A DNA stretch of 33,161 nucleotides from contig JADLEX010000015.1 of the NCBI GenBank assembly GCA_020845895.1, forward strand, positions 1-33,161, given 5' to 3'. Positions within the stretch are counted from its first letter, which is position 1, and each line of letters opens with the position of its first letter. Origin of the DNA: Deltaproteobacteria bacterium. Its GTDB lineage: Bacteria > Lernaellota > Lernaellaia > JACKCT01. The translations under genes were made by a program, and so were the position numbers. The notes under the pieces are model-generated. The model searched no databases. It was not told where the DNA came from and worked only from the letters and a program-made list of their open reading frames with translations. This document shows positions 3,332 to 31,390 of the stretch, piece by piece.

Positions 3332-4354
3332 ATGAGAATCGGAACCGCCCAAACGCTGATTCTGACGCTCGGCGTTGCCCTTTCGGCGACGTTCGGCGCG
3401 TCGGCGCGCGCCCAGGACCCCGCGGACGGCAAGACCCCGGGCGTCGAAATCGTCGTGACCGCGGAGCCGAATGAGATCACCGTGGGCGACGAAGTCCGTT
3501 ACCGCATCACGGTGACGTGGGATCCCGCCAACAAGGTCGAGCAAAAAGCGCTGGAAGAGAACCTCGGTGACCTCGTTGTACGCGAGCAGCTCGGGGTCGA
3601 CCTGCAAACGCTTCCCGACGGGCGCTCCCAACGCACCGAGGGTTACGTCATCACCTCGTATCTGGTCGGCAAGTACAAGCTCCCGCCCCCTGCGGTGCGT
3701 TTCACGAACGCCGCCGGAGCGGAATTGGTCCTGGACGCCGAGCCGATCATCCTGAACGTCCGCTCGGTGACGCCGGATGACGCGACCGACATCCGCGACA
3801 TCAAACCGCCCCGCGCGGTGCCCCGCGACCTGCGTCAGGTGGGGATGTACGCGGCGATCGCTTTCGCGGCCATCGCGTCCATCATCGCCGGTATCGTGGC
3901 GTGGCGGCATTTCAGGCGGAAGCCCGAACCCGAGACGCCGCCCCTGCCCGCGCACGAGCATGCACTCGCCCGTCTCGCTGCCGCGCGCGAGTTTCCCCGC
4001 GCGACGCACGACGAAATCAAGGCGTACTACGTCGAAATCTCCGCCGCGCTTCGCGAGTATCTCGACCGCCGCTTCGCCGTTCCCGCGCCGCTGCTGACGA
4101 CCTATCAGCTGCGCGACGCGCTGCGTGGTCGCACGCAGATGCCTGCCGGCGACGGCGCGGCGCACTTTGGCGCGCTTTTCGATGTACTCGACACGGCCGA
4201 TTTCGTGAAATTCGCCAAATTCGACCCCGATGCCGACGGGCAGAACGCGGATCTCGATTCCGCGATCCGTTTTGTCGAGGCGACGCGACCGCCCGAGCCA
4301 ACGGAATCGGCAACCGACGCGCCCGCCGCGCCGCCAAACGAGAACGCCGCATGA
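3332..4354 (+). CDS. BatD-like/DUF4381-like membrane protein heading the Bat operon
   Basis: The 340-residue protein has a signal peptide (about 1-27, ending ASARAQD). A periplasmic beta-rich domain follows (about 35-145) that begins like a BatD domain (VEIVVTAEPNEITVGDEVRYRI). There is one membrane helix at about 171-191, then a basic stop-transfer run (WRHFRRK) and a cytoplasmic tail with a helical EIKAYYVEISAALREYLDRRF segment. This layout and its place just before batA resemble the short BatD-like or DUF4381 proteins seen in aerotolerance operons. The role, presumably scaffolding with the VWA proteins, is inferred. ATG 3332 gives the clean signal peptide; its stop overlaps the batA start (ATGA). 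Confidence 0.7.
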   Translation: MRIGTAQTLILTLGVALSATFGASARAQDPADGKTPGVEIVVTAEPNEITVGDEVRYRITVTWDPANKVEQKALEENLGDLVVREQLGVDLQTLPDGRSQRTEGYVITSYLVGKYKLPPPAVRFTNAAGAELVLDAEPIILNVRSVTPDDATDIRDIKPPRAVPRDLRQVGMYAAIAFAAIASIIAGIVAWRHFRRKPEPETPPLPAHEHALARLAAAREFPRATHDEIKAYYVEISAALREYLDRRFAVPAPLLTTYQLRDALRGRTQMPAGDGAAHFGALFDVLDTADFVKFAKFDPDADGQNADLDSAIRFVEATRPPEPTESATDAPAAPPNENAA

Positions 4355-5346
4355 GTTTCCAGTTCGCCAACTCCTGGGCGCTCGTCTTCCTGGCGTTGCC
4401 GCTGCTCATTTTGTGGTGGCGGATCGCCGGGGAGCGATGGCATGTCGCGCCGATCCGCGTCGGCGGCGCGGAGCTGTGGCGCGACGTGCGTCCGTCGTGG
4501 CGCGTTCGTTTTCGCCGGTTGCCGCTCTATTTGCGCGTCGCGACGCTGGTATTTGTGGTCTTCGCCCTCGCGCGCCCACAGCTCGGCCGCACGCAGAACG
4601 TGACCGAGGGCGAGGGGATCGACATCGTGCTCACGCTCGACGTGTCGGGGTCGATGGCCGCGCAGGATTTCGCTCCGAACGACCGCCTCTTCGTCGCGAA
4701 GAAAACCATCGAGCGCTTCATCGAAGGCCGCAAGGTCGATCGCATCGGCCTCGTGCTCTTCGCGGGGCAGGCGTTTTCGCAGTCGCCGCTCACGCTCGAC
4801 TACGGCATCATCCTGCAGTTTCTGGAGCGCGCGAAGATCGGGATGATCGAGGACGGCACGGCGATCGGCATGGCGCTCGTGACGGCGACGAACCGCCTGC
4901 GCGAGTCGACCGCCAAGAGCAAGGTCGTCGTGTTGCTGACCGACCGCGACAACAACGCGGGACGCGTGGACCCGATGACGGCGGCGGACCTCGCCAAGGC
5001 CGTGGGTATCCGCGTGCACACGATCGGCGTGGGCAGCGACGGCCCTGCGTACATTCCCGTCAAGGACCCGCTGATGGGCACGCGCCTCGTCAAGCAGACC
5101 TTCGTGCTCGACGAGAAAGTGCTGCGCGGCATCGCCGACAAGACCGGCGGGCAGTTCTACCGCGCCACCGACGCCGACAGTCTGCGGCGTGTGTTCGACG
5201 CCATCGACCAGCTCGAAAAAAGTCCTTACGAGGTGAAGACCTTCACCGATTTCACCGAGCGCTATCCGCTTCCACTGGCGCTCGCGTTTTTGTGCCTCGC
5301 CGCCGAATTGGTCCTCGCGCGCACGGCCCTGCGGGAGGTGAGCTGA
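4351..5346 (+). CDS. batA: BatA-type von Willebrand A membrane protein
   Basis: The 331-residue protein has membrane segments near the N-terminus (about 9-23 and 60-74) and C-terminus (about 308-325) flanking a VWA domain. The metal-ion site is intact: DVSGS (Asp97, Ser99, Ser101), Thr170 in EDGTAIG, and Asp198. The residues after Asp198 are unusual, LTDRDNN where LTDGxNN is usual, so a small Gly is replaced by Arg199. BatA proteins are named after the Bacteroides aerotolerance operon; with BatB they probably act as a membrane VWA complex worked on by a MoxR AAA+ ATPase. It overlaps the preceding gene by four bases and is followed by batB one base after its stop. Confidence 0.92.
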   Translation: MSFQFANSWALVFLALPLLILWWRIAGERWHVAPIRVGGAELWRDVRPSWRVRFRRLPLYLRVATLVFVVFALARPQLGRTQNVTEGEGIDIVLTLDVSGSMAAQDFAPNDRLFVAKKTIERFIEGRKVDRIGLVLFAGQAFSQSPLTLDYGIILQFLERAKIGMIEDGTAIGMALVTATNRLRESTAKSKVVVLLTDRDNNAGRVDPMTAADLAKAVGIRVHTIGVGSDGPAYIPVKDPLMGTRLVKQTFVLDEKVLRGIADKTGGQFYRATDADSLRRVFDAIDQLEKSPYEVKTFTDFTERYPLPLALAFLCLAAELVLARTALREVS

Positions 5347-5347
5347 G

Positions 5348-6376
5348 ATGGACTTCGCCCGGCCGTGGCTGCTGCTGATACTCGTTGCGATCGCGCTGCT
5401 GGCCGTGTGGCTCGTGCGTGCTTCGCGGCGACGAAGTGCCGCGCTGGCCGAGTTCGCCTCGGCCGACGTGTGGCGCGCGGTGCGTCTTCACGCCGCGCCC
5501 GGACGCGAGACGGCGCGCATCGCGCTCGTGACGGCGGCGCTCACGCTGATGGTCGTGGCGCTCGCCGGCCCGCAATTCGGCACGGTCTTCGAGGAAGTGC
5601 GCCGTCGCGGCATCGACATCGTCGTGGCGGTGGACGTCTCCAAGTCGATGCTCGCCGAGGACCTTGCTCCAAACCGCCTGGAAAAGGCCAAACACCAGCT
5701 TTCGAGCCTGCTCGATCAGGTGCGCGGCGACCGCGTGGCGGTGTTGCCCTTCGCGGGGCAGGCGTTTCTGCTCTGCCCGCTCACGCTCGACTATTCGGCG
5801 GCGAAGCTCTACCTGTCGATCCTCGACGTGAACGCGATTCCCACGCCGGGCACGAACATTACCGCGGCGATCGAGACGGCGACCGAGGCGTACGAGAGCG
5901 TGAACCGCAAGCACAAAGTGATGCTGCTGCTCACCGACGGCGAGAGCACCGTCGGCGACGTGGAGAAGGCGACCGAAAAGGCGAAGGAAGAAGGCGTCGT
6001 GATCTACACGATCGGCATCGGCTCGCCCGAGGGCGTCCCGATTCCGCAACGCGACGAACAGGGCAACATTTCGTACGTAAAGGACAAGTCGGGACAGGTC
6101 GTGCTTTCGAAGCTCGACGAGACGCAGCTACAGAAAATCGCCGACACGACCGGCGGGAAGTATTATCGTTCGAGCTACGGCGAGCTCGAACTCGGCTGGT
6201 TTCTTGAGGAAATCGAGAAGATGGATAAAAAGGACCTCAAGAGTCAGGTCATTACGCGCAAGCGCGAGCGGTTTTTCGTGTTCGCGCTCGCGGCGATGAT
6301 GATGCTCGCCGTCGAGGCGGCGTGGCCCGAGCGGCGCGTGTGCAGGCCCCGGCGCACGGATGAGGACGCGGCATGA
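5348..6376 (+). CDS. batB: BatB-type von Willebrand A membrane protein
   Basis: The 342-residue paralogue of BatA has two N-terminal membrane helices (about 7-24 and 58-74), a VWA domain, and a C-terminal hydrophobic segment (about 308-322). The metal site is canonical: DVSKS (Asp96, Ser98, Ser100), Thr169 in PGTNIT, and Asp197 in LLTDGES. It shares long stretches with BatA (FAGQAF, PLTLDY, IADxTGGxxYR), so the pair arose by tandem duplication. The start is one base past the batA stop; the stop overlaps the batC start. The function in oxidative or envelope stress is known only from the family. Confidence 0.92.
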   Translation: MDFARPWLLLILVAIALLAVWLVRASRRRSAALAEFASADVWRAVRLHAAPGRETARIALVTAALTLMVVALAGPQFGTVFEEVRRRGIDIVVAVDVSKSMLAEDLAPNRLEKAKHQLSSLLDQVRGDRVAVLPFAGQAFLLCPLTLDYSAAKLYLSILDVNAIPTPGTNITAAIETATEAYESVNRKHKVMLLLTDGESTVGDVEKATEKAKEEGVVIYTIGIGSPEGVPIPQRDEQGNISYVKDKSGQVVLSKLDETQLQKIADTTGGKYYRSSYGELELGWFLEEIEKMDKKDLKSQVITRKRERFFVFALAAMMMLAVEAAWPERRVCRPRRTDEDAA

Positions 6377-7248
6377 CGCGGCGCACCGACACCATCCCGT
6401 TTCGAGCGATGCTCGCCCCCTTGGCGGCGGCGTTGTGGATCTTCGCCGGCGCGGGGTTTCTCGAATTCGTCTTCGACGAGGCATACAAGGGGAACCGCGA
6501 ATTCGAGCACGGGCGGTACGATCAGGCGCAACAGCATTACACCGAAGCGCAGGTGAAAAACCCCAGCGCCCCGTCGCTCGACTTCAACCTCGGCGGCGCG
6601 CTTTACAAACAGGGCAAGTTCGACGATTCGCTGACCGCGTCCCGCAAGTCCTACTACAGCGACGACCCGAATATCGTGGCCGACGCGCACTACAACGCGG
6701 GCAACGCGCTGTTCAAGAAGGGTGCGTATCCCGAGGCGATTCAGGAGTACATCGAGGCACTCAAGCGCCGCCCCGGCGACGAAGACGCCAAGTACAATCT
6801 CGAGCTCGCGCGGCGCTTGCTCGCGCAGCAGGAACCTTCGAACCAGAACAAGAATCCCGATCAGAAAAAGGACGATCCGAAGGACGACAAGAGCGGCGGG
6901 GGCGACCAGGAAGGCGACAAGCCCGACGAGGGCAAGAAGGGCGATCAGCAGGGCGAGAACGAGGGCGGTGAAAAGGGCAAGGCCGAGTCGAAGGACGACC
7001 AGACCGACGAGGCGAAACCCACCCCCAAGCCCCAGGAGGGCGAGGACGAGAACGACCAGCCGCCCGAAGAAGAGAAGAAATCCCCCGACACCCGCGTGGA
7101 GGAATCGACTGAACAGCAGACGGTCGAGAACCTGACGCCCGATCAGGCCGCGCGGATTCTGGATTCGCTCAAGCGCGATGAACAGGCCGAGCTCATCCGG
7201 CAGATCCTGCCGAAGACGGGATACACCGTTCCCGACAAGGACTGGTGA
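6373..7248 (+). CDS. batC: BatC-type TPR protein with a long charged linker
   Basis: The 291-residue protein has a hydrophobic N-terminal segment (about 12-30). TPR units at about 38-150 show the hallmark spacing (FNLGGALYKQGKFDDSL, YNAGNALFKKGAYPEAIQEYIEAL). A very polar linker rich in Lys, Asp, Glu, Gln and Gly follows (about 153-245), then a conserved-looking tail that starts ENLTPDQAARILDSL. That tail and the acidic/basic linker are typical of BatC or the equivalent TPR partner in aerotolerance operons, where the protein is thought to dock BatB and BatD. Both ends are coupled to its neighbours (ATGA at the start, TGATG at the end). Confidence 0.88.
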   Translation: MTRRTDTIPFRAMLAPLAAALWIFAGAGFLEFVFDEAYKGNREFEHGRYDQAQQHYTEAQVKNPSAPSLDFNLGGALYKQGKFDDSLTASRKSYYSDDPNIVADAHYNAGNALFKKGAYPEAIQEYIEALKRRPGDEDAKYNLELARRLLAQQEPSNQNKNPDQKKDDPKDDKSGGGDQEGDKPDEGKKGDQQGENEGGEKGKAESKDDQTDEAKPTPKPQEGEDENDQPPEEEKKSPDTRVEESTEQQTVENLTPDQAARILDSLKRDEQAELIRQILPKTGYTVPDKDW

Positions 7249-9062
7249 TGTCCGCGCCCCTTCGCCATCTCACGGGCCTCGTCGGGCTGCTCTTCGTTCT
7301 CGCGGCCGCACCGGCCGTCGCGCAGGTCACGCTCTCGCTCGATGCCGAGCCGCAGTCCGTCCAGGTGGGCGACGCCGTGACGGTGACGATTCGCCTCGAA
7401 GGCGCGGGGCTCTCCGCGCCGAAGCCACAGCTTCCGAGCCCCGCAAACCTCGAACTGATCGGCACGTCGGGCGGGCCCAGCATCCAGATCGTCAACGGCC
7501 AGACGACGGTCACGCACCAGACGGGACTGACGTTTCGCGCGACGACCGTTGGCAAGGTCACGATCGGCCCGGCGAAGATGACGATTCGCGGGCAGGTGTT
7601 TCAGAGCAACACCGCGGACGTGGAGGTCGTCGACCGCATGGCGGCCGCCGCGCCCGGCGACGTGCCCGAGGAAGCCGCGGGAAACGGCGCGTTCATCGAC
7701 GCCGAGGTCGAACCCGAAACCGCGTACCCGGGACAGGAAGTCATCGTCACCTACTACTTCTACCTGATTGAGGGACAGGGACTCGAAGGCGCGGAACTGC
7801 TGGGAGATCCGGCGTTCACCGGCGGTCTCGGCCATCGACTCTCGGGCGGGCAGTCGTTCAACTTCACCTCCACGAACGTCGGCGGAACTCGATACAAGGT
7901 GTCGCAGGTGGTGCGTTTCGCCGTGTATCCCATCGCGCCGGGCGAGGTGAAGATCGAGCCGCTCGTCATGTCGGTGCTGCTGCCCGAACGAAATAGTCGG
8001 CGGCGGAGCGACCCCTTCGGCATCGATGCGTTTTTCGGGCGCACGGTCCGGCGTGAACTGCGCAGCCCCGCGAAGACCATCACGGTGAAGCCCCTGCCCG
8101 TCGCCGGGCGGCCCGCGGGGTTCGAGAACAACGTCGGCGTCTTCACGATGGCCGCCGCGATCGACAAGGCGCAGGTCCGCGCGGGCGAGGGGGCGACCGT
8201 GTCGATCACCGTCACGGGCAAGGGCAACGCCGACAGCCTCGGCGCGCCGAAGCTGAACCTGCCGACCGGCTTGCGCGGGTTCAAGGAAGCGAGCCGCGAC
8301 GACAGCGTGGCGAGCCTCGACACCATGAAGGCGCGGCGCGTGTTCGAAACCGTGATCGTGCCGGAAAAGGACGGCGAGTACACGCTCGGTCCCTTCACGC
8401 TCGACGTCTTCAATCCCGTGAAGCAGGCGTACGAAACGATCTCGGCGGGGCCGATCGCGCTTTCGGTGCTGCCCGGCGACGTGGCCGCCGCGCCGGCCAG
8501 ACCGCGCACGAAGGAAGAAATTGCCCTCGCGGGTCGCGACATCCGCACCGTCAAATCCGACGCGCAGCACCTCGACGAATGGCGTGAGCCGATCACGCGG
8601 CATCCCGCATACTGGGCTGTTTTCCTGCTGGCTCCGGTGGCGTTTGCCGTGCGCGCGTGGAGGGTACGTCACGCGGAGCATCTGGCGGGCAACGTCGCCC
8701 TGGCGAGGCGGCTTCGCGCGGGCAAGGAGGCGAAGAAGCACCTCGCCGCCGCGAACAACGCCGTGGGCGGCGCGCCATCGGATTTCGGAGCGGCGCTCAC
8801 CGCGGCGCTCATCGGTTTCGTCGCCGATCAATTCGCCGTCGAAGCGCCGTCGCTCACGGCGGCGGCGGCGCGCGAACGTCTCGCGGCGCGAGGCGTCGGC
8901 GACGATCTTCTTCGGGATTTCGCCGACCTGCTGGGCGCCTGCGACGCCATGCGTTTCGGCGGCGTGAATCCCCCGCCGGACGACCGCCGGGCCGCCATTG
9001 ATCGCGCGGGGCGATGGATCGACGCGATGCACCGCCTGCTCGCGAAAGGGGGCGCGTCGTGA
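7248..9062 (+). CDS. batD: BatD protein
   Basis: The 604-residue protein has a signal peptide (about 1-25, cleaved near AVAQV). Its periplasmic region is built of repeated beta-sandwich modules (about 26-440), with the typical openings VTLSLDAEPQSVQVGDAVTVTIRL and FIDAEVEPETAYPGQEVIVTYYFYL. A membrane helix near 453-471 is followed by a basic cytoplasmic tail of about 130 residues with a helical AAAARERLAARGV segment. Length and domain order fit full-length BatD. ATG 7248 shares its A with the batC stop (TGATG); a GTG three bases earlier is also possible. It is coupled to batE by a GTGA overlap. Confidence 0.92.
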   Translation: MSAPLRHLTGLVGLLFVLAAAPAVAQVTLSLDAEPQSVQVGDAVTVTIRLEGAGLSAPKPQLPSPANLELIGTSGGPSIQIVNGQTTVTHQTGLTFRATTVGKVTIGPAKMTIRGQVFQSNTADVEVVDRMAAAAPGDVPEEAAGNGAFIDAEVEPETAYPGQEVIVTYYFYLIEGQGLEGAELLGDPAFTGGLGHRLSGGQSFNFTSTNVGGTRYKVSQVVRFAVYPIAPGEVKIEPLVMSVLLPERNSRRRSDPFGIDAFFGRTVRRELRSPAKTITVKPLPVAGRPAGFENNVGVFTMAAAIDKAQVRAGEGATVSITVTGKGNADSLGAPKLNLPTGLRGFKEASRDDSVASLDTMKARRVFETVIVPEKDGEYTLGPFTLDVFNPVKQAYETISAGPIALSVLPGDVAAAPARPRTKEEIALAGRDIRTVKSDAQHLDEWREPITRHPAYWAVFLLAPVAFAVRAWRVRHAEHLAGNVALARRLRAGKEAKKHLAAANNAVGGAPSDFGAALTAALIGFVADQFAVEAPSLTAAAARERLAARGVGDDLLRDFADLLGACDAMRFGGVNPPPDDRRAAIDRAGRWIDAMHRLLAKGGAS

Positions 9063-9832
9063 TTCGCCGCATCGCGATCGCGGTTGTAGTGTTGGCGGCG
9101 CTGGCGCATTCGAGGCACGCCGGTGCGTCCGGCGAGGGCGCGGCGACGTTCTACAATCAAGGCAACGAGGCGTTTCTCGCGGGCGCCTACGCCGAGGCGA
9201 TCGATGCCTATGAGAAAGCCCGCGCGCAGGGCAGCGACGACGCACGGCTGCTTTACAACCTCGGCTGCGCGCACCTGAAGGCCGGGAACCTGGGTCAGGC
9301 GATCCGGTTCTTCGAGATGGCGCGCCTTCGCGCCCCGCGCGACGCCGACATCATCCACAACCTCGATTTCGCCAAATCCTCGCGCGCCGACGCGTTGCCC
9401 GAGACCGACGAATCCCTCGTGATGCGCCTCGGCCGATTCGGTGTCGAGCGGCTGCGCTTCGTGGAACTCGCGGGCGCGGCGGCGGCGTGTTATGTGATCG
9501 GCTTCGCCGTGATCGGTGCGGGATGGCCCCGGAGGCGCGACCGCTCCGGCAAGCGCGTCATCGCGGTCGGGGTCGCGTTGCTCCTTTGCGCGGCGCTCGC
9601 GGGCGTGTACGCCATCGAACATCGGCGAGAATACGGCGGCGCGCGCGCGGTGGTCGCCCCCGCCGAACTCGCCGTCAAAAGCGGGCCGTCGATGGACAAC
9701 CCGACGCTCTTCACCGTTCACGCGGGGATGGACTGCAAAGTGCGCGAGACGCGCGGCACGTGGTCGCTAATCGAAATTCCGACGGGCTTCACGGGATGGG
9801 CTCCCAATGAAGCGCTTTTGCCGATAGGATAA
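9059..9832 (+). CDS. batE: BatE-type TPR/SH3 membrane protein
   Basis: The 257-residue protein starts with GTG inside the batD stop region. A signal-like hydrophobic N-terminus (about 2-20) precedes TPR units (about 28-110: FYNQGNEAFLAGAYAEAIDAY, LLYNLGCAHLKAGNLGQAI). Two membrane helices follow (about 138-158 and 170-185). A C-terminal SH3-like domain (about 197-257, LAVKSGPSMDNPTLFTVHAGMD and TGWAPNEAL) is of the bacterial SH3 type that binds peptide or cell-wall ligands. TPR plus SH3 is the standard layout of BatE. It ends the Bat operon, which has no moxR or DUF58 gene in this window. Confidence 0.9.
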   Translation: MIRRIAIAVVVLAALAHSRHAGASGEGAATFYNQGNEAFLAGAYAEAIDAYEKARAQGSDDARLLYNLGCAHLKAGNLGQAIRFFEMARLRAPRDADIIHNLDFAKSSRADALPETDESLVMRLGRFGVERLRFVELAGAAAACYVIGFAVIGAGWPRRRDRSGKRVIAVGVALLLCAALAGVYAIEHRREYGGARAVVAPAELAVKSGPSMDNPTLFTVHAGMDCKVRETRGTWSLIEIPTGFTGWAPNEALLPIG

Positions 9833-9854: not shown

Positions 9855-10628
9855 ATGACCCGGGACGATCGCAACAAGGAGCATCGCGCCGACACCCACG
9901 CCGCGCACGAACCCGATTCGCGCGCTTCGGCGCATCCCCACGGCGCGGCGCACGCACAAGGCCACGACGGGCACGCGCATGGCCACGACGGGCATGCGCA
10001 CGGCCATGCCCAAGACCATCACCACGACCATCAGCACGACCGCAAGTTCAGTGTCGCCAAGGCCGCGCGGCTCGACGACCCGGCACGAAAAAAACTCCTG
10101 CCGCTAAAAACGATCATCCGCCTCGTGTCGCCCTTCGAGGGCATGTCCTTCGCCGACATCGGCGCGGGCACGGGGTATTGCCTGTTTCCCATCGTCGAAG
10201 CCGTCGAAGGGCGCGGGCGCTTTTACGGTCTCGATTGCCAGGATGCGATGAACGATATCCTGCGGGAGCGTTCGATCCATCACCGATACGGCGAGTCGAT
10301 CATTCCGGTTCTGACCGCGGAAACGCACATCGATCTGGGGCCGGAGACGCAGGACGTTTTGCTTTGCTGCGCGGTGTATCACGAGCTTCCCGCCCGCGAT
10401 CACCATCTGTCCGAAATGCTGCGCGTATTGCGTCCCGGCGGTCGCGTCGTGGTGATCGACTGGCCGCCGCTGTCCGACGGTCAGACTCCCGATTTCGGTC
10501 CGCCAAACCATCTGCGGATTTCGCTGGAATCCGCGTGCCGCGAGTTTCTGGATGCCGGATTCGGACACATCAAGGCCCATGACGAGTTCGAACACTACTG
10601 GTGTCTGACCGCGACAAAATTGCACTGA
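9855..10628 (+). CDS. SAM-dependent methyltransferase with a His-rich N-terminal extension
   Basis: The 257-residue class I methyltransferase has motif I ADIGAGTGYC at about 100-109, an acidic residue after the second strand (GLDCQD), and a post-IV region LRPGGRVVVIDWPP, all typical of UbiE/Methyltransf_11-like enzymes. The first 63 residues are unlike the family core: 18 of the first 61 are His, in HGHDGHAHG-type repeats resembling metal-binding or storage segments of metallochaperones and Zn/Ni transporters. Several Cys lie near the active site (Cys128, Cys171, Cys172), so a metal or metalloid substrate is conceivable but unproven. It begins 22 bases after batE and could be cotranscribed. 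The substrate is unknown. Confidence 0.85.
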   Translation: MTRDDRNKEHRADTHAAHEPDSRASAHPHGAAHAQGHDGHAHGHDGHAHGHAQDHHHDHQHDRKFSVAKAARLDDPARKKLLPLKTIIRLVSPFEGMSFADIGAGTGYCLFPIVEAVEGRGRFYGLDCQDAMNDILRERSIHHRYGESIIPVLTAETHIDLGPETQDVLLCCAVYHELPARDHHLSEMLRVLRPGGRVVVIDWPPLSDGQTPDFGPPNHLRISLESACREFLDAGFGHIKAHDEFEHYWCLTATKLH

Positions 10629-10674
10629 TGGGGCGCGATTCCCCTGTACGGTTAGAGACTTCGCGACGGTGCCC

Positions 10675-12609
10675 ATGCCTTTTCACGCGGAAATAATGGG
10701 GCGTTCAATAACACCGGCGCAAGACACGGAGTCGAAAAAAATTTTCGTGATCCAGATGTGGCTGAACATCGCTCCCTACGCGCTGCCCGTTCCGGCGGGC
10801 GAACCCCTGCGGCTCTCGGCGTTTGCGGGACGCGTGGACAAGACCGCGCTGCTCGACCTGATGTCGACGCCAGACCCGCAAATTGGCGATCTCGCGGCGC
10901 TGATCCAGGCTCGAGAAGTCGGAATGACGTCCGAGTTCGTACCGACCGACGACGCCGTCGTCGACTTTTCGACGACCAACACGGTGACGGTGACCGCGTC
11001 GGCGCATGTGGATCGCTTTCCGTCCGGGTCCGACGTGTTGATCGGCTCCTTCGCGGATCGCGAGCAGCTCGACGGAGCGGGCGAAATGCTGCTCGCGGGG
11101 TTCGAGTACGCGCTCGGCGGAACGTCCGTCGACGTGGACCTGCCGACCGTCGATCCGGGCGGCGCGATCCCGGCCTACGACCCCCTTCTGGCCGCCATCG
11201 CCATCGACGCGAACGGCGCGATCGTCACGCAGATCGCGCGCGGGCTCGCTTCGCGCAATGACGACGTCGATTTGGCCACGCCGTTCGATGTGTTGGACGG
11301 GCTCAGCCAAACCGACCGATCGTTCACGCTGAGCGATCCGACGACCGCCTGGAGTCCCGACGCGGATCTCGTCATCGCGCGGATTATCATGAGGGCATGG
11401 GCAGACGAGGCGCTCTGGGAAATTTACGCGCCGGGTGGGACGACCGACCTGATGCTGCCGGAAATTCCAGCTGGCGTCCGGGCCCCCATGCGCGATCCGC
11501 AGTCGGGCGAAAGGCTGGACCTGCTGGCGGGGGTCGCCGCGCTCACCTTCGGCTCGGCGCCCTTCGACTACGACACTTTCTCGTTCGATCAGATCACGGA
11601 CGAACTCACGCACTACACCTTCAATCGTCTGACGGGTCTGGACAACCCCTACGTTTTCGTTCCAACGACAACCACGACCACAACCACAACCACAACGACC
11701 ACGACCACGTCCACCGCGACGCCGCCGACGACACACCCCTCCACGACGACCACGACGGAAGGAACAACGACCACGGTGGCGCCGACAACATCGACGACCA
11801 CCACGACCATCGCGGGTGACCCGCCCACGGTTTCCAACGGGTCGTTCAATCCCGCGGAGTTCGACTGGACACCCGCGTGCGAGGTGGAAGCTTGTAGCTG
11901 GCTCGAGTTCACCGTCTGCGATCCGGACAGCGATCTGCTCGGAGCGTACGTCAAGCTCGTCGACGTGCCGTTCTTCCTGTTTCCCACGACCATAGACTGG
12001 GATGAATTGATCGCTCCCGGCGACCCGCTCACGGACTGTGAATTCCCGTTCGGACCGGTGCGCTTGCCGCTCATCCTCGCGGAATGGATGTTCGGCGTGG
12101 GTGAAGACTGGTACGATGGACGCGTGGACATCATTGGTTACGACGCGGCGGGGCACATCGGCAACCGGTTGGAGGACGTGGCCTTCAGCGTGTACTACGC
12201 GCCGGCGTCGACCACCACGACGATCGGCAGCACGACCACAACCACAACGACCGCGAGCAGCACGACGACATCGAGCACGACGACAACAACCGGCGCCACA
12301 TCGACTTCCGATCCGGGTACGACTACCACGTCCTCGACGACAACGACGGAACCGAGCACCACGACGACACAGACGTCAACGACGGCGAGTTCGACATCGA
12401 CAACAACATCAACGAGCACGACGACGACATCGGATACGGGTAACACCACGACAACGACGTCAACTTCGACGTCTTCAACGACGACGACTTTAGAAGGGGA
12501 TGACCATGACGAGCCGGACGACGACACCGAGAATCCGGAATTCCCGGAAACAGGTTCCAACGAATCGAATGTCGGTGCCATGGAACAAGACGGAGCATGT
12601 TGTGGGTGA
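10675..12609 (+). CDS. Threonine-rich presumed surface protein, possibly 5'-truncated
   Basis: The roughly 644-residue product is of unrecognised family. Residues about 20-330 form a beta-rich region with no known motif. An uninterrupted run of 15 Thr (about 331-345) opens a Thr/Ser/Pro linker, then a beta domain with four Cys (about 386-510, CEVEAC, TVCDPDSD, LTDCEF). A second Ser/Thr-only stalk (about 512-606) and an acidic tail ending in ACCG complete it. Long Thr stalks are typical of secreted or cell-surface proteins, yet no signal peptide precedes the body, and the start (ATG 10675 or GTG 10669) lacks a good ribosome site. The 5' end may therefore be lost or rearranged. Its end overlaps the likely GTG start of the next gene by eight bases. 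Confidence 0.65.
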   Translation: MPFHAEIMGRSITPAQDTESKKIFVIQMWLNIAPYALPVPAGEPLRLSAFAGRVDKTALLDLMSTPDPQIGDLAALIQAREVGMTSEFVPTDDAVVDFSTTNTVTVTASAHVDRFPSGSDVLIGSFADREQLDGAGEMLLAGFEYALGGTSVDVDLPTVDPGGAIPAYDPLLAAIAIDANGAIVTQIARGLASRNDDVDLATPFDVLDGLSQTDRSFTLSDPTTAWSPDADLVIARIIMRAWADEALWEIYAPGGTTDLMLPEIPAGVRAPMRDPQSGERLDLLAGVAALTFGSAPFDYDTFSFDQITDELTHYTFNRLTGLDNPYVFVPTTTTTTTTTTTTTTTSTATPPTTHPSTTTTTEGTTTTVAPTTSTTTTTIAGDPPTVSNGSFNPAEFDWTPACEVEACSWLEFTVCDPDSDLLGAYVKLVDVPFFLFPTTIDWDELIAPGDPLTDCEFPFGPVRLPLILAEWMFGVGEDWYDGRVDIIGYDAAGHIGNRLEDVAFSVYYAPASTTTTIGSTTTTTTTASSTTTSSTTTTTGATSTSDPGTTTTSSTTTTEPSTTTTQTSTTASSTSTTTSTSTTTTSDTGNTTTTTSTSTSSTTTTLEGDDHDEPDDDTENPEFPETGSNESNVGAMEQDGACCG

Positions 12610-14011
12610 GCGTCGATCTCGATTGGGCGCTGGATCGGTTTCGCACAGATTTGAACCGATTTGCGGCGTTATAAATCTGATTTTCTCCTGCTGTTTGGCG
12701 GCTGCGATATCACTTTGCTTTCTGATTGGATGCGCGCAGGACTCTTCTTCCCCACGAAACGGTGGTACTGAAATTGTGGAAACTCCCCCAACTAGCGCAA
12801 TCGAATCGGTAGCCACACCGACGATCTCAACCACATCGGCGGATTCGAATTTCGAAATTCCGGTTACAAATCCGAAATCAAGCAAGCCTGATCATAGGGA
12901 CACGAACGAAGAATCAACCTTGACAATTTCCACCGAAACGCCGAAAAATCTGCATCGAAGAGCGCTTGGTCCGTTCGGCAGGGACTCTGATTTGAGATAC
13001 CTGAGTAAAGAAGAAATCCTTGACTTGATTTCATATTTTAGAATTTCGGAAAATGAGCTTCCCGACAAATCGACAAATCAAGAAACATTTGTGTGCAGCA
13101 ATTGTTTGGTGATATGCAATGGTCTCATATTGACACCCCCATTTTCGACTGAAATCGAAGGGGACATACTGTACATTAACGGAATACCAGCGAATGAGTT
13201 TGTCGCCGAAAAAGGGATGCTGCAATTTCTCTCAGACAATCCTCAAATTAAAACTGAAATTGATTATGCATATAATACTATACCTATAAGCGATTATCAA
13301 GCGCGATGCTCAGATAAGTATGATGAAACTAAATATGCCATGTTCGCAGCAGCACGTTATATCATATTAAAAGAAATGCAATCAATAGATCCAAAATTCG
13401 ACGGCGATCGACTTGCAAGGGAAACTAGAGAGTACCTCGCGAAACGAAATTATATATATCTTGATAAAATTCAATTGGATATATCCGCAAGTTCAAACGG
13501 AAAAGAAATAACATATTCTGCGCAGGGGAACGTACCGAAATGCAAAGGTGGCGCATTAATGGGGAATCAGCAACTATTAAAACCGAACGAGGCGAGAGAG
13601 CATCTAAATAAGTACAGGGATTATTATCGAAATTTACGCCCGAAAACACCAGAAGACAAAATGAAATTAAAAAATCGTAATAAAGAAAAAAAGCCAAGAG
13701 AGGCATTTGCAGAATTGCCGAAACCGCTTCGCCGAGCCCCAGATGAAGTGCTAAAGATGTTTCGAGAGATCCTTCACGACAACACTCATATTATAATAGA
13801 AAAGGGAATATCACATGTTCGGCGTGGCGGTTTAATTGACGTCAACAAAGATCTAAAACAGTTATATTATACGCTGTGCGCAGAGGGGGACGAAGTCGAG
13901 GCAAAGGTTGCTGGTATTCAGAGATCAGTGAGCATCAGAAGTGTCGATGCGCTAGTGATGCTCGCAAATTTTGAGGCGACGAAACAGTGCGTCGGCAAAT
14001 ACGAGGAATAA
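12602..14011 (+). CDS. AT-rich orphan lipoprotein of unknown function
   Basis: The product is about 469 residues from GTG 12602 (GGAG 6 bases upstream, overlapping the previous stop); an ATG at 12569 in the same frame is an alternative. A basic leader and hydrophobic stretch end in a lipobox, CFLIGC (Cys44), and a Ser/Thr/Pro-rich linker follows, so it is probably a surface lipoprotein. The body has a cysteine cluster CSNCLVIC (Cys165, 168, 172) and a Lys/Arg-rich middle section (LKNRNKEKKPREAF). I recognise no family. Base composition is unlike its neighbours: 20 of 60 bases are G or C at 13261-13320 against 37 of 60 in ileS at 15301-15360, and ATA and AGA codons are frequent. Recent acquisition is the simplest reading. 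Confidence 0.7.
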   Translation: MGERRSRLGAGSVSHRFEPICGVINLIFSCCLAAAISLCFLIGCAQDSSSPRNGGTEIVETPPTSAIESVATPTISTTSADSNFEIPVTNPKSSKPDHRDTNEESTLTISTETPKNLHRRALGPFGRDSDLRYLSKEEILDLISYFRISENELPDKSTNQETFVCSNCLVICNGLILTPPFSTEIEGDILYINGIPANEFVAEKGMLQFLSDNPQIKTEIDYAYNTIPISDYQARCSDKYDETKYAMFAAARYIILKEMQSIDPKFDGDRLARETREYLAKRNYIYLDKIQLDISASSNGKEITYSAQGNVPKCKGGALMGNQQLLKPNEAREHLNKYRDYYRNLRPKTPEDKMKLKNRNKEKKPREAFAELPKPLRRAPDEVLKMFREILHDNTHIIIEKGISHVRRGGLIDVNKDLKQLYYTLCAEGDEVEAKVAGIQRSVSIRSVDALVMLANFEATKQCVGKYEE

Positions 14012-23865: not shown

Positions 23866-24741
23866 TCAGGCGGCGAGAACCGCGAAGACCTCGGACCGCT
23901 TGGCCTCCTCCTGCACGTCGCGGATGATGTCGGGCACGTCTTCCATGCGCAGCGCCAGATCGTCCCACGCGCCAATGCTGCTCGACTCACGGATCATCCC
24001 GGGCGTCGAGGTGGCGCCGAGATTGTTGCAGATGAAATCGGCGATATGGACGAGCTCGGCGAGCCGGCGGTTGCGGTCGGGCGCGAGGTCGGGTTCGTGA
24101 TGGTAGATCACCGCGTCGACCACGGGCTCGGGCAGCCGCCATCGATTGAGCAGATAGCCGCCGATCTCGGCGTGCGTGATGTCGAGCAACCGCCGCTCGG
24201 CATCGGAGGCGGTCAGATGATCCGATTCCATCAGCGCGCGGGTTTCGGCGTACGCATCGGCGAAGTGTCGCTCCAGCACGAAGGTGCCCACGTCGTGCAG
24301 GATTCCCGCGGTGTAGGAGTGATCCATTTCGAATCGATCGATGCCGCCCGCGTATTCACCCAAAACGCGTGTCGTGTAGGCCACGGTGATCGAGTGCCGC
24401 CAGAATGCGTGCAAATCGATGGTCTTCGATCGGTTCCCGAAGACGCGCGCGATGCCGACCGCGGTGCAGATGCGCCCGACCTCCTGGATTCCGAGCCGCG
24501 TCACGGCCTGCGCGACCGACGCGATCTCCTTTCCGGCGGTCCCATAGTAAGCCGAGTTGACGACCTTGAGCACCGCGCTGGTGAGCGCGGGGTCGTCGGC
24601 GATGACGACGGCGATGTCGGCGGTCGAGCTCTTCTCGTCGCGGACGCGCTCCATGACGCGAGCGACCACCTGCGGCAGGGTCGGCAGGGACCGGATCTCG
24701 CCCAGCCGATCGAGAATCGAGGTTCGCGCGGGGCGGTTCAT
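23866..24741 (-). CDS. HDOD-domain signalling protein
   Basis: The 291-residue protein is filled by an HDOD domain: the opening LPTLPQVVARVMERVRDE (19-36), DDPALTSAVLKVVNSAYYG, and the HD-like centre GILHDVGTFVLE are all typical. HDOD proteins lack a proven enzymatic activity in most cases and act in signalling, often beside receiver or cyclic-di-GMP proteins. The gene starts one base after the stop of the adjacent cheY-like gene, so it belongs to the chemotaxis transcript. The stop codon sits inside a CGCCGC/GCGGCG hairpin (23860-23875) that lacks a T-run. Confidence 0.92.
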   Translation of the reverse strand: MNRPARTSILDRLGEIRSLPTLPQVVARVMERVRDEKSSTADIAVVIADDPALTSAVLKVVNSAYYGTAGKEIASVAQAVTRLGIQEVGRICTAVGIARVFGNRSKTIDLHAFWRHSITVAYTTRVLGEYAGGIDRFEMDHSYTAGILHDVGTFVLERHFADAYAETRALMESDHLTASDAERRLLDITHAEIGGYLLNRWRLPEPVVDAVIYHHEPDLAPDRNRRLAELVHIADFICNNLGATSTPGMIRESSSIGAWDDLALRMEDVPDIIRDVQEEAKRSEVFAVLAA

Positions 24742-24742
24742 G

Positions 24743-25123
<381 letters not shown>

Positions 25124-25133
25124 GGCGCGCTCC

Positions 25134-25982
25134 TTACCGCTTCACCTGGTAGTAGATCGACCGTTGGTGATCGCGGATTTCGAAGTCCGTGCTGTACCCC
25201 GACAGGCTCTCCGCGGAGCCGAGGAACAGGTGTCCGCCCGTGTTCAGGGCCCGGGCGAGCCGTGCGAACAGGTTTTTCTTGAAGGTTTCGGAAAAATAGA
25301 TCGCGACGTTTCGGCACATGATGATGTCGAAGGTCCCGAGCGCCGCGAAGTCGGACTGAAGATTGAGGCGCTTGTAGGTGACCATCTTCTTTACGGACTC
25401 GTCCAGAACCCACACGCGGCCGTTCTGCTTGAAGTAGCGGTCGCGCATGGCATCCTCGAGACCCCGGCCCATCGAAATCTGGTCGTAACGGCCCGCCATG
25501 GCCAGAAAGAGCACCGAGGGCGAAATGTCGGTGCCGACGATCTCGACGTTCGCGGGACGGAGCGCCGCGCCGGGCCGAAGCCGCGAGAACTCGTGCACGC
25601 ACATCCCTAGCGAATACGGCTCCTGTCCGGTGGAACTCGCCGCGCACCAGATTCGTACGCGCATGCGCTTGCCCGACGCGATCTCGGCGTCGAACTGCGG
25701 CAGCAGCACGTCCTGAAAAACCGCGAACGGCGACTTGTCGCGAAACCAGAGCGTTTCGTTGGTCGTCATCGCGTCGACCAGCTTGTCGCGAAGGCGCTGG
25801 TCGGGTGTCGTTTTGATCTTTCGGTAGAACTCCAGAAAGGACTTGGAGCCCGACTCCACGACCATGGTCGTGAGTCGGCTCTCGATCAGATATTCCTTTC
25901 CGCTCGTGAGCGAGATTCCGCACTGCTCCTCGATGTAGTCGCGAAGCAACGTGAATTCCTCGTTCGAAATGGCGAGCGCCAT
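25134..25982 (-). CDS. cheR: Chemoreceptor methyltransferase CheR
   Basis: The 282-residue protein has an N-terminal helical CheR domain (about 1-60), the family signature MTTNETLWFRD (72-82), and a SAM-binding domain with IWCAASSTGQEPYS (111-124) and IIMCRNVAIYF. It methylates glutamates on chemoreceptors, opposing CheB. ATG 25982 shares its A with the cheB stop (TGATG); a GTG one codon earlier is also possible. No receptor gene lies in the window, so the targets are encoded elsewhere. Confidence 0.95.
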   Translation of the reverse strand: MALAISNEEFTLLRDYIEEQCGISLTSGKEYLIESRLTTMVVESGSKSFLEFYRKIKTTPDQRLRDKLVDAMTTNETLWFRDKSPFAVFQDVLLPQFDAEIASGKRMRVRIWCAASSTGQEPYSLGMCVHEFSRLRPGAALRPANVEIVGTDISPSVLFLAMAGRYDQISMGRGLEDAMRDRYFKQNGRVWVLDESVKKMVTYKRLNLQSDFAALGTFDIIMCRNVAIYFSETFKKNLFARLARALNTGGHLFLGSAESLSGYSTDFEIRDHQRSIYYQVKR

Positions 25983-27127
25983 CACGTCGACCTCCGGCCA
26001 AATGGGCGAATCTTATCTGCAATTCGGGTTGCGATCTCAGGCAGGGCGATCTGCGCGTCGGACAGGCCCGCCTCGTCGATCGCGCGCGGCATCCCGTACA
26101 CCACGCACGTCGCGGCCGACTGCGTGATGCAGTAACAGCCTTTGCGCTTGAGCGTCGCGACGCCGTCCGCGCCGTCGTCGCCCATGCCCGTGAGCACGAC
26201 GGCGAGGATGTTTTTGCCGTACGTGTTCGCGACCGAGCGAAACAGCACGTCCACCGAAGGACGGCAACTTTTCACGGGCGGATTTTCGTTGATGCCGATC
26301 CGCCGCTCCGTCTGCCCCGCCTCTTCGCGCACGACCATGTGCCGACCGCCGGGCGCGATGTAGACCGTGTTGCGCAGGATCGGCTCGCCGTCCGCGGCCT
26401 CCTTCACCGCGAGCGGCGACTTTCCGTCGAGGTTGCGCGCGAGCGACTCGGTGAACTTCGGCGGCATGTGCTGAACGAGCAGCACCGGCACGCCCAAATC
26501 GCCGGGCAGGAGCGGAATGATTTTTCCGAGCGCCTCGGGCCCGCCAGTGGAGCAGCCGATCGCGAGTACGTCGAAGACGCCGGGGACAGGTGCGATCCGG
26601 GCGGAGGGCGGAGGTGGAGGAGGAGGCAGGATCGCCGGGGCGGATTCGGGACGCGAATCCCGTCCCGCGCGCATCGCGGCGGTGCGCTGTCGCGTTCGGT
26701 GGAGCATCAGCACGGTGGAGATCTGCTTGCGCAGCCACTCGACGCTGGCGTCGATCCCCATTCCCTCGGGTTTTGGGACGAAGTCGATCGCGCCGGATTG
26801 GAGGCACTTGATCGTGATGTCGGCGTTGTGCGTGCTCGCGCCGCTCACCATCACGACGCCGATGTGCGGCCAACGGGGCTTGAGGGCCTTGAGCGTCTCC
26901 AGTCCGTCCATCTCGGGCATCTCGACGTCGAGAAACACGAGATCGGGCTTGAGCTGTTCGATCTTGAGCAGCGCGATGCGGCCGTTGGGCGCGGTGCCGA
27001 CGATCTCGGCGTCTTCGAGACGTTCGACGACGTCGGTCATGATCCGCCGATAGGTGACGGTGTCGTCGACGACCAGAACCCGACTCCGGGGTTCCGGCGA
27101 GGCAGCTTTGGCGGCGTTCCAGCTCAT
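25982..27127 (-). CDS. cheB: Chemotaxis methylesterase/deamidase CheB
   Basis: The 381-residue protein has a receiver domain (about 15-135; Asp21-Asp22, phosphoacceptor Asp67 in FLDVEMPEMDG), a Pro-rich linker (168-174) and a methylesterase domain (about 183-375). The catalytic triad is visible: Ser193 in GCSTGGP, His220 in VQHMPP and Asp318 in GMGDDGA. It removes methyl groups from receptors when phosphorylated by CheA. ATG 27127 was chosen because a longer in-frame extension is Arg-rich and reaches into the 52-base gap behind cheW. Confidence 0.96.
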   Translation of the reverse strand: MSWNAAKAASPEPRSRVLVVDDTVTYRRIMTDVVERLEDAEIVGTAPNGRIALLKIEQLKPDLVFLDVEMPEMDGLETLKALKPRWPHIGVVMVSGASTHNADITIKCLQSGAIDFVPKPEGMGIDASVEWLRKQISTVLMLHRTRQRTAAMRAGRDSRPESAPAILPPPPPPPSARIAPVPGVFDVLAIGCSTGGPEALGKIIPLLPGDLGVPVLLVQHMPPKFTESLARNLDGKSPLAVKEAADGEPILRNTVYIAPGGRHMVVREEAGQTERRIGINENPPVKSCRPSVDVLFRSVANTYGKNILAVVLTGMGDDGADGVATLKRKGCYCITQSAATCVVYGMPRAIDEAGLSDAQIALPEIATRIADKIRPFGRRST

Positions 27128-27179
27128 GTCCACCGGTTTCCGGGGTCGAGTTCGACGTTTCGGCGCGCGACCGGTTCGA

Positions 27180-27650
27180 TCAGGAACAGACCTGCGCCAC
27201 CTTGAGAATCGACAGCAGGCCATGATCGAGTTTGACCACGCCCGAAAGGTACTTGCCGCTGATCACGCCGACGTTCGCGGGGGGCTTCTCGATCTCCGAT
27301 TCGTCCACGGTGACGACGTCGCCGATGCGATCCACGAGCAGACCGACCACATCGGTCCCGGTGCCGACGTGTTCGTCCGTGTGCACCGCCTGCCGGTCGA
27401 GTTCGCCCTCGGTCTTGAGGATGATGTTGCGCGACGTGGCCGACACCTCTCGCGGGTCGAGCGCGAGTTTGACGCCCAGGTCGAGCACCGTGACGATCTG
27501 GCCGCGCAGGTTCACGAGGCCCCTCACGTAGTTCCCCACGCGATGCACCGGCGTGAGTTCGAGCTGACGGCTGATCTCGCGGACGTAGAGGATGTCCACG
27601 CCGAAGAGGTGATCGTCGAGATAGAACGTCGTGTATTGCTTGTCGCTCAT
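27180..27650 (-). CDS. cheW: Chemotaxis coupling protein CheW
   Basis: The 156-residue CheW domain protein has the expected two-lobe beta pattern: YTTFYLDDHLFGVDILYVREI, PVHRVGNYVRGLVNLRGQIVTVLDL and VGLLVDRIGDVVTV. CheW links receptors to CheA. ATG 27650 shares its A with the cheA stop (TGATG); a GTG one codon earlier is the alternative. The chain cheA-cheW is therefore translationally coupled. Confidence 0.95.
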   Translation of the reverse strand: MSDKQYTTFYLDDHLFGVDILYVREISRQLELTPVHRVGNYVRGLVNLRGQIVTVLDLGVKLALDPREVSATSRNIILKTEGELDRQAVHTDEHVGTGTDVVGLLVDRIGDVVTVDESEIEKPPANVGVISGKYLSGVVKLDHGLLSILKVAQVCS

Positions 27651-30600
27651 CACGCAGCCCTCGTCGCGGATTGCAGCAGGTTGTGGATGGTCTCGAGAAG
27701 CTTGGCCTTGTCGATCTTCACCGCGTAATCCGTGAAGCCGCTCTTCGTGCCCAGGTCGCGCGACTTTTCGTCGGTGAGCGACGTGAGCGCGAGAACCGGC
27801 ACGCCGGCGTGGCCGTTGCCGCTGCCGCGGATGCGTCTCACGAGTTCGAACCCGTCCATGCGCGGCATCACGATGTCCGACACCACGAGGTCGTAGTGCG
27901 TCTTCATCAGGGCCTCGAGGGCTTCCTCGCCGTCGCGCACCGTGTCGACCGCGTAGCCCGCGGACTCCATATAGTCGCGCTCGAGCTGTCGGAAGAAGGG
28001 CGTGTCCTCGGCGAGCAGGATGCGGTACGAACCCTCGGCGCGGCGGATCGGCGCCTCGGCGCCGTAGTACTCGGGATCCGCCTTCTCCATGAGCGCGAAG
28101 GTGTCGAGCACAAGCGTGATGCGCTCGTTGACGATCGCCGAACCCATGATGCCGCCCTCGGCGCGGTTCGTCGTGTCGAGGTCGATTTCGGTTTCGAGGA
28201 CGTTGACGACCTCGGTCGCGACGATGCCGACCGCGGTTTTCATCAGCTTGGGCACGATGACGTACAGGAACGCGCCGTCACTCGCCGGAGCGGAGACCGG
28301 CAGATGGTGATGCAGGCGCACGAGGCGCATCGCGCCGCCCCGGTACTTGATGAACTCGCGGTCTCCCACGCGCTCGATGTCGCCCAACGGCACCTTCTCG
28401 ATGCGCGTGATGAGCGAAAGCGACATGGCGAAGATTTCCTCGGGGCCGTTGCGGAACAGCAGCACGGTCTGGCGCTCGCGCAGACCGTTGCGCATCGCAT
28501 CCTGCTCCATCGCCACGTTCGCGCGGTCCACGTCCTCGAACGCGAGTTTTGCCGTGTCAGAGATGCCCTTGGCGTCGAGAATCATCGCCACGCGCCCCTC
28601 GCCCATGATCGTCGTGCCCGAGTAGCAGGAGTTTTCCTTGACGTACTTGGACAGCGGCTTCACCACGATCTCCTCGTTGTCGAACACGCGGTCGACGATG
28701 AGGCCGAACTGGTTGGTGCCCGCCACGAGCACGAGGATGTTGATGGCGCTTTGCGAATGGAATCGGCGATCCGGCCCGCCACGCCGGTCCGGGTGCGACC
28801 GTTGCGCACCGCCGTTGATCGCGACGAGTTCGCCGGTCTCGCCGTCCACGCGGAAGCGATTCGGTTCGCCGTCCGGAGCGCGGCGATCGACGAGCGTCAT
28901 GCGGCGTTCGTCGCACTCATCATTGGTCTCGGGATCGACATACGTGGCGCGGATCCCGAGCACCTCGGACAGACGCACGAGGGGCAGGAGCTGGTCGCGC
29001 AGGCGCAGCACTTCGGCACCGTTGACCTCTTTGATGCTTTTCGAGGCGTCGCGCGCGCGGATGCGCACGAGTTCGACGATGCTGACCTGGGGCACGGCGA
29101 ATTTTTCCTCGCCGACGCCGATGAGCAGCGACGGGATGATCGCGAGGGTGAGCGGCAGGCGCAGTCTCACGCGCGTGCCCTCGCCCTTGGTGGAATCGAG
29201 TTCCACCGTTCCGCCGAGCCGCTCGATGTTGGTTTTCACCACGTCCATGCCGACCCCGCGGCCGGAAACGTCGGTCACCTGCGCGGCGGTCGAGAATCCC
29301 GGCGCGAAGATGAGGTTCAGCACCTCGCGGTCGCTCATGCGCGCCGCGGCCTCCGCGGACACGACGGCCTTCTCCACCGCCTTGCGCCGGATGACGGACG
29401 GATCGATTCCGTTCCCGTCGTCGCTGATCTCGATGTTGACGAGGCCCGCCTCGTGGAACGCGCGCAGCAGCACGCGCCCGACGCGCGGCTTGCCCGCCTT
29501 CTCGCGGTCCTCGCGCGACTCGATGCCGTGATCGGCCGTGTTGCGAATCAGGTGCGTGAGCGGATCGGACAGCGACTCGATGATCGACTTGTCGAGTTCG
29601 ACGTCGCCGCCCTGGATCTCGAGCTCGATGTCCTTGTCGAGCTTCTTGGCCAGGTCGCGCATGATGCGCGGGAACTTGTTGAACACCCCGCCGACCGGCT
29701 GCATGCGGGTGTACATGATGCTTTCCTGCAGCTCGCCGGTCACGAGATTCAGGTTCTGGAGCACCGAATTCAGGCCGCGGATTTCGCCGGCGCGGTCGAT
29801 CAGGAGCTGCGTGAGCTGGTTGCGCGAAAGCACCAGTTCGCCTGCGAGGTTCAGCAGGTGGTTGAGCAGCGACACGCTGACGCGCAGCGTCTCGGCGCCT
29901 TCCTGCCCGCGCGACGCCGTCGCGGCGGATTCGGGCGCATCGGCGGGCGACGCATTCGTCTTGCCGTTCGCGGGCGACGTTCCGTTCACCTTCCTCGGAG
30001 TCGACGGGGGCATCGATGCCGGTATGGGCGTCGAAACGGACTCGACGACGACCTCGGCATTCCCGGCTGGTAGCGCCGCCGGCGGCTCCACCCGGCTCAC
30101 CTGATCGTCCGCGACGCGCAGCGCCATCGCGAAGAGGTCCTTTTCCAGAACACTCGCGCCGAGAATCCAGACATTCGCGGCGTCGGTGTGGCTCTCGAGC
30201 TTCTCACGCGAGGGATCGCTCGCCAGGCACTCGCCCACGGTCTTGAGCTGGTCGAGCACGTCGAGCGCCGAGCGGCCGCCCGCCCGGAGATCGACGTCGG
30301 CGTCGAGGCGAATCAGATAGGCCATTCGACCGGACGCCTGGCACGATTCCCATTGGGCGGGAGTGGGCGCGAGCGCGGGCGCCGCGATCGGCGGCGCCGA
30401 GGCCGCCGCGGCGGGTTTCGCCGTCTCGGCGGGCTTGCCGTTCGCGGCATCGAGCAGCGCGACGAGGCGCGACTTTTCGGCGCTGATATCGAAGCTGTCG
30501 GCGTTCTCGACATCGTCCACCATGGCGGAGAGACGATCCGAACCCGCGAGCAGCGCGTCGACGAGCTCCGACGAGACGCCCAGCGACTTGTCGCGCAGTT

Positions 30601-30826: not shown

Positions 30827-30854
30827 GGCGGTCCCTCTCGCCCTGTGGGCGCCC

Positions 30855-31316: not shown

Positions 31317-31390
31317 GCAAGTCCCCCGCGAAGCGTTTTTCGCAAGCCGCCCGCCCTCGCGCGCGGCCCTTTGTCCGGTTCCGGGCGCGT

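Follow-up and report, generated by a model that had tools for sequence, protein, structure and literature searches.

A class I methyltransferase with a histidine-rich, possibly metal-binding leader encoded behind a bat operon

Histidine-rich stretches are recognized as a sign that a protein handles metal, and the question raised by this locus is why such a stretch lies at the N-terminus of a SAM-dependent methyltransferase. The window, which is the whole stretch of 33,161 nucleotides analyzed here, contains a 257-residue open reading frame on the plus strand. The preliminary description reported 18 His among its first 61 residues, followed by a class I methyltransferase domain. Both the His count and the coordinates of the open reading frame proved exact, and the domain assignment was borne out by matches to Pfam Methyltransf_11, Methyltransf_12 and Methyltransf_25 from residue 101 onwards. 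In searches of a limited open-access collection, we found no description of a His-rich stretch on a SAM methyltransferase. The features of the locus are as follows.

4351 to 9062, plus strand: BatA-like, BatB-like, TPR (BatC-like by order) and BatD-like genes of a bat operon
9014 to 9832, plus strand: TPR plus SH3-like protein, 22 bases upstream of the methyltransferase
9855 to 10628, plus strand: class I SAM-dependent methyltransferase with a His-rich leader, 257 amino acids (open reading frame and Pfam)
9855 to 10040, plus strand: His-rich leader, residues 1-62 (18 His)
9950 to 10006, plus strand: 21-base tandem repeat, 2.7 copies, encoding GHDGHAH-like units (sequence)
10044 to 10625, plus strand: methyltransferase core, starting with KF (residues 64-65)
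10155 to 10175, plus strand: SAM-binding motif I, DIGAGTG, residues 101-107 (sequence and Pfam)
10380 to 10385, plus strand: His176-Glu177; all 64 aligned relatives have His at position 176, whereas position 177 holds Glu in 46 of them and His in the other 18
10458 to 10463, plus strand: Asp202-Trp203; Asp in 55 and Glu in 9 of 64, then Trp in 41, Phe in 15, Tyr in 5 and His in 3
10497 to 10505, plus strand: GPP motif, residues 215-217, present in 61, 63 and 54 of 64 aligned relatives

All 18 His of the 62-residue leader are located within residues 1-61, and residues 37-61 read HDGHAHGHDGHAHGHAQDHHHDHQH. HxH motifs start at residues 27, 40, 42, 47, 49, 55, 57 and 59, with HH at 55 and 56, and this dense cluster of HxH, HxxH and HH is of the type found in the metal-binding His-rich stretches of HypB, CDF and LarC proteins. 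The 18 other open reading frames of the window, when pooled, contain 163 His in 7955 residues (2.05%), and no 61-residue stretch in any of them has more than 7 His; against this background, the binomial probability of 18 or more His in 61 residues is 2.3e-16. The first in-frame ATG, GTG or TTG after residue 1 is a GTG at residue 91. This codon follows the conserved F65 and R78, and a usual start codon for the whole core without the leader is therefore absent. An alternative start that drops the leader and keeps the whole core was thereby ruled out for the usual codons, and the leader is obligatorily translated together with the whole core. Residues 1-62 are hydrophilic as judged by eye, which speaks against a signal peptide; the leader is probably disordered.

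The core scored above the gathering cut-offs of Methyltransf_12 (44.2 bits, cut-off 30), Methyltransf_11 (43.3 bits, cut-off 21.2) and Methyltransf_25 (43.1 bits, cut-off 27) and contains the GxGxG of motif I, which defines it as a class I SAM methyltransferase. For this region, the Pfam matches are no more specific than the general class I methyltransferase domain with its UbiE-like relatives, and all 23 NCBIfam models listed for the protein were far below their cut-offs. A UbiE/MenG quinone methyltransferase was rejected because the best UbiE model gave 35.3 bits against an equivalog cut-off of 216. The best single-sequence match in the PDB was 3dh0, and a core profile of nine relatives matched the same entry with 177 bits over positions 4-190 of 193. 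We defined a 3dh0-like core signature consisting of F at the core start, R78, HE or HH, D/E-W and GPP. Among the 64 aligned relatives, F65 was found in 52, R78 and H176 were invariant, D202 was found in 55 and P216 in 63. The KF core start corresponds, by eye, to the position of a short M..F(D/N) start in approximately 21 of the 28 other best loci. On the basis of its sequence, the core is a member of the 3dh0-like branch of the UbiE/Methyltransf_11 superfamily; the enzyme would be a cytosolic class I SAM-dependent methyltransferase of this branch and probably acts on small molecules. At two other loci, L045 and L118, the same core is apparently fused to an ArsR-like helix-turn-helix (by eye).

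The genes upstream of the methyltransferase (BatA-like, BatB-like, TPR, BatD-like and TPR-SH3) follow the bat order, and from this order we take the TPR-SH3 protein at 9014-9832 to be BatE-like. In the nearest relative, G002, which belongs to the same family and is 46-50% identical, the same bat series ends directly before the methyltransferase, with a TPR-SH3 homologue immediately upstream. The methyltransferase is therefore linked to a bat operon in two genera, and this adjacency would fit a leader that serves as a metal-delivery arm for a partner such as the Bat (VWA) system, with the methyltransferase being only a carrier or a cofactor maker. Such a role is favored by the link of VWA proteins in MoxR systems to the insertion of cofactors and metals. 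However, neighbors in an operon need not interact, no bat genes were found by the same search in the 27 other neighborhoods, some of which are cut by contig ends, and we know of no metal target of Bat proteins; we consider delivery to the Bat system unlikely.

Downstream of the methyltransferase lie a Thr-rich protein, an AT-rich open reading frame and an isoleucyl-type class I tRNA synthetase. The Thr-rich protein (10669-12609) is a 646-residue open reading frame that contains long poly-Thr linkers, matches no Pfam family and overlaps the next open reading frame by 110 bases. The latter belongs to an AT-rich island (12500-14011) that encodes 503 residues; these likewise match no Pfam family, and a lipobox-like stretch was recognized in them by eye. 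The G+C content is 0.40 at 13001-14000 versus mostly 0.60-0.70 in the window, and the island may have been acquired. Further along, on the minus strand, a chemotaxis-type cluster at 23866-31649 contains HDOD/HD, CheR, CheB, CheA-like kinase and CheX genes.

To place the leader among relatives of the enzyme, we compared the results of several searches. A core search of 98 genomes gave matches in 21, and a profile search of 386 genomes, with matches in 322, reached the wider superfamily; the best 30 loci of the latter search were fetched. The G002 relative begins MDHHDHHSKKFHH, with only MDHHDHHSK ahead of the core, and the other genome of the family, G001, gave no match at an E-value of 1e-8. 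In G005, a genome of the same class, the copy is split over contig ends and starts with MTRDKMF without a His-rich leader. The window protein also begins with MTRD and rejoins the G005 sequence at RKF, so the leader looks inserted when the two are compared by eye. Its length thus varies from 62 residues in the window to about 9 in G002 and 0 in the class relative. None of the 28 other loci among the best 30 had a comparable cytosolic leader, and one of them, L059, showed HQHGH following an apparent signal peptide. A pattern search of genome contigs for relatives recovered one distant relative with 27% identity, and two scans of viral contigs recovered none. As far as these relatives indicate, the long leader is a lineage trait. 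The G002 copy itself (L028, 6646-7188) apparently goes out of frame close to its 3' end, where the homology continues in another frame (by eye).

According to the preliminary description, a role of the leader in metal handling would be contradicted by homologues that have the same core in an otherwise identical context and no leader, together with an absence of metal binding. The G002 relative goes half of the way: it sits behind the bat operon and carries only a short His cluster. Since the leader is not conserved in length and a tandem repeat is visible in its DNA, a serious rival is that it arose by near-neutral tandem duplication of such a short His cluster, was tolerated at a disordered N-terminus and is functionless. 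The repeat (88% matches over its 2.7 copies), the variation in leader length within the class, from 62 residues through about 9 to none, and the apparent insertion relative to G005 are all consistent with this explanation. It accounts less well for the retention of His in both gene-bearing members of the family at the same place in the operon, for the recurrence of His-rich segments in a separate branch of lipoproteins, described below, and for the differences between the two full repeat copies, which are few, numbering two, and are both silent CAC/CAT changes. We regard a neutral expansion as quite possible, if short of probable.

The lipoprotein branch was found in the class of G034, where relatives were present in 77 of 147 genomes at an E-value of 1e-20, and 30 loci (L142-L171) were fetched from large genomes of this class. 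A lipobox was recognized in 29 of the 30 loci, and the segments between lipobox and core contain 137 His in 642 residues across the 29 loci, with 1-9 His in each. In the phylum of G229, 72 of 199 genomes matched and 30 loci were fetched; no equally dense segment was present in the 29 loci read, in which L196 and L210 each had 3 His in 40 residues. The lipoprotein branch shares with the window enzyme the core fold, the GPP motif and a His-rich segment directly ahead of the core, but it differs in having a signal peptide and a lipobox and is predicted to be extracytosolic. A quick tree of 64 rows, in which one locus appears twice (L010 = L034) and the deep branches are poorly supported, paired the window protein with G002 at a support of 100, separate from the 20-row clade of the exported members (support of 99). 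Because this pair stands apart from the exported clade, there was probably more than one origin or expansion of the His-rich trait. The earlier view that such leaders are unusual on methyltransferases consequently holds for the near relatives and not for the superfamily as a whole, in which His-rich segments recur. A search with sulfur, CDF, FeoB, copper ATPase, bat and other baits found none of them in 12 neighborhoods of the lipoprotein branch. This branch is a second puzzle in itself, as it presents a SAM enzyme with a His-rich stalk that is predicted to lie outside the cytosol.

We also looked for similar stretches in the genome of the window. A scan for five spaced His codons pointed to nine contigs of this genome, and seven places were fetched. 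Four of these encode proteins whose His-rich parts are convincing, namely a CDF transporter, HypB, LarC and a small protein that is rich in His at one end and had no NCBIfam match. Loci L138-L140 contained no convincing His reading frames (by eye). HypB was identified by TIGR00073 with 261.7 bits against a cut-off of 121.2, and LarC (L136, 873-3137), a nickel-pincer cofactor protein, has a His-rich stretch of its own. By analogy with these HxHxHxHxH proteins of the same genome, two of which handle nickel (HypB and LarC) and one of which is a cation transporter (CDF), metal binding by the leader is plausible. The simplest reading would be that the leader is an arm for binding Ni, Co or Zn, and the His-rich part of CbiX-L, described below, is a fair precedent for it. 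In this reading, an expanded and probably disordered leader was joined ahead of the core; it would bind a divalent metal, most likely Ni, Co or Zn, as a buffer or capture arm and would take no part in catalysis. The His cluster that the G002 relative retains at the same place in the operon supports a metal arm. Gain and loss of a His-rich trait within one family has precedent, since COG0523, UreG and HypB proteins are described in passages of PMC2770081 as existing both with and without His-stretches.

A different role for metal was suggested in the preliminary description, which proposed that Cys residues near the active site fit the metal idea and that the enzyme could methylate a metalloid. 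Six such residues do exist, at positions 109, 128, 171, 172, 228 and 250. The argument drawn from them fails because these positions are Cys in only 1, 1, 2, 3, 1 and 2, respectively, of the 64 aligned relatives, the window protein included. ArsM has a conserved active-site Cys, and the enzyme was rejected as an arsenite methyltransferase both on this point and by its score of 31.9 bits against a cut-off of 263 for the NCBIfam ArsM model NF008823. An enzyme that methylates arsenite, selenite or tellurite, with a leader that holds or delivers the metalloid, would agree with the class I fold common to ArsM, with the weak matches to ArsM models and with the apparent fusion of L045 to an ArsR-like domain seen by eye. 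Against this, the genome encodes a separate ArsM-like protein that scored just above the cut-off (268.5 bits), and His side chains suit arsenite poorly. The window enzyme thus resembles ArsM in its class I fold and differs from it in lying far below the ArsM cut-off and in lacking the conserved Cys; metalloid methylation did not survive this comparison and is very improbable.

For the substrate of the core, we turned to the neighborhoods of relatives. Twenty-eight plasmid records with relatives approximately 27-34% identical to the window core were found, and 15 were viewed for their neighborhoods; 10 of these 15 (L092-L096, L099-L102 and L104) had TauE/SafE, TusA, DsrE, rhodanese, sulfurtransferase or YeeE/YedE genes within 5 kb, although 11 of the 15 are from haloarchaea and the loci are therefore not independent. 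No sulfur genes were found within 5 kb at L091, L097, L098, L103 and L105, nor in three further plasmid records viewed from the 96 of a second search. On the haloarchaeal plasmids L099, L101 and L102, the methyltransferase and rhodanese genes overlap by 8 bases inside sulfide/persulfide clusters. Rhodanese or TauE genes were present in 5 of 27 chromosomal neighborhoods versus 0 of 20 control stretches, which is a weak enrichment (Fisher p 0.063), where the controls come from the 15 of the 27 genomes with long enough contigs and three of the five positives are from genomes without a control. In the lipoprotein branch, 0 of 12 stretches had either gene. The best-scoring relative adjoins a pyridine nucleotide-disulfide reductase-rhodanese fusion, and another relative adjoins a CDF cation transporter. 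From 102 neighboring open reading frames, chosen crudely by length, 54 were scanned (10 and then 44 more). In the first 25 of 56 families listed for the 44 further proteins, radical SAM (4), YGGT (3) and rhodanese (3) were the most frequent; OsmC (2) and TauE (1) also occurred, and the others were largely unrelated. Beside a Haloarcula relative lies a second methyltransferase, for which a TMT1-like reading was rejected: its PDB matches listed a phosphatidylethanolamine methyltransferase and others, with no TMT1.

In the window and in G002, the neighbor of the methyltransferase is the bat operon, and no sulfur or metal gene was found beside it. These two proteins form a deep pair that was not joined with good support to a sulfur-linked clade in the tree. 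Passages of PMC12904073 describe MddH and MddM2 as UbiE-family and MddM1 as UbiG-family S-methyltransferases for H2S and methanethiol. From these enzymes and from the sulfur-gene neighborhoods of the relatives, our best guess is that the core methylates a small thiol or sulfide, most likely in the manner of the H2S and methanethiol S-methyltransferases; we hold this guess with low confidence, as nothing in the window itself points there.

Taken together, we assign a probability of roughly 40% to the joint reading of a cytosolic 3dh0-like small-molecule methyltransferase that has a non-catalytic, metal-binding His-rich leader and acts on a small thiol or sulfide. The protein combines a known fold with a known kind of leader, and this combination recurs in the superfamily. 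Should the stretch bind metal, a coupling between metal buffering and methyl transfer, perhaps during the detoxification of sulfide or thiols, could be tested directly in this family. A broader idea, which we consider a long shot, is that a single superfamily of methyltransferases for small thiols or sulfide acquired His-rich metal-binding arms repeatedly, both on cytosolic members and on members outside the cytosol. Metal on the arm might then keep sulfide or thiolate close to the SAM pocket, or metal and sulfide might be sensed jointly by the arm. If this were true, metal load and sulfide detoxification would be coupled within one protein.

Comparison with known systems places the two parts of the protein separately. 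The core family profile matches PDB 3dh0 over nearly its full length; this entry is listed as a SAM-dependent methyltransferase without a specific function, and it differs in that its 219-residue chain is matched from chain residue 5 and is thus without a long leader. MddH, MddM1, MddM2 and TMT1A/B are, like the window enzyme, class I SAM enzymes, and their small-thiol substrates fit the sulfur-gene neighborhoods of the plasmid relatives. MddM2 additionally has an N-terminal extension, which is unstructured and includes a signal peptide. These enzymes are likened here by description and not by sequence, and the passages concerned mention no His-rich leader on them (PMC12904073). The HypB, UreG and COG0523 metallochaperones resemble the leader in composition, as does the HypB of this genome, but they are G3E-type GTPases, whereas the stretch is located on a methyltransferase here. 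In the cobalt chelatase CbiX-L, the His-rich region is C-terminal and the metal is the substrate of the enzyme; nevertheless, as described in parts of PMC7689651, CbiX-L likewise joins an enzyme to a His-rich region that is dispensable for the reaction and is proposed to store or deliver metal.
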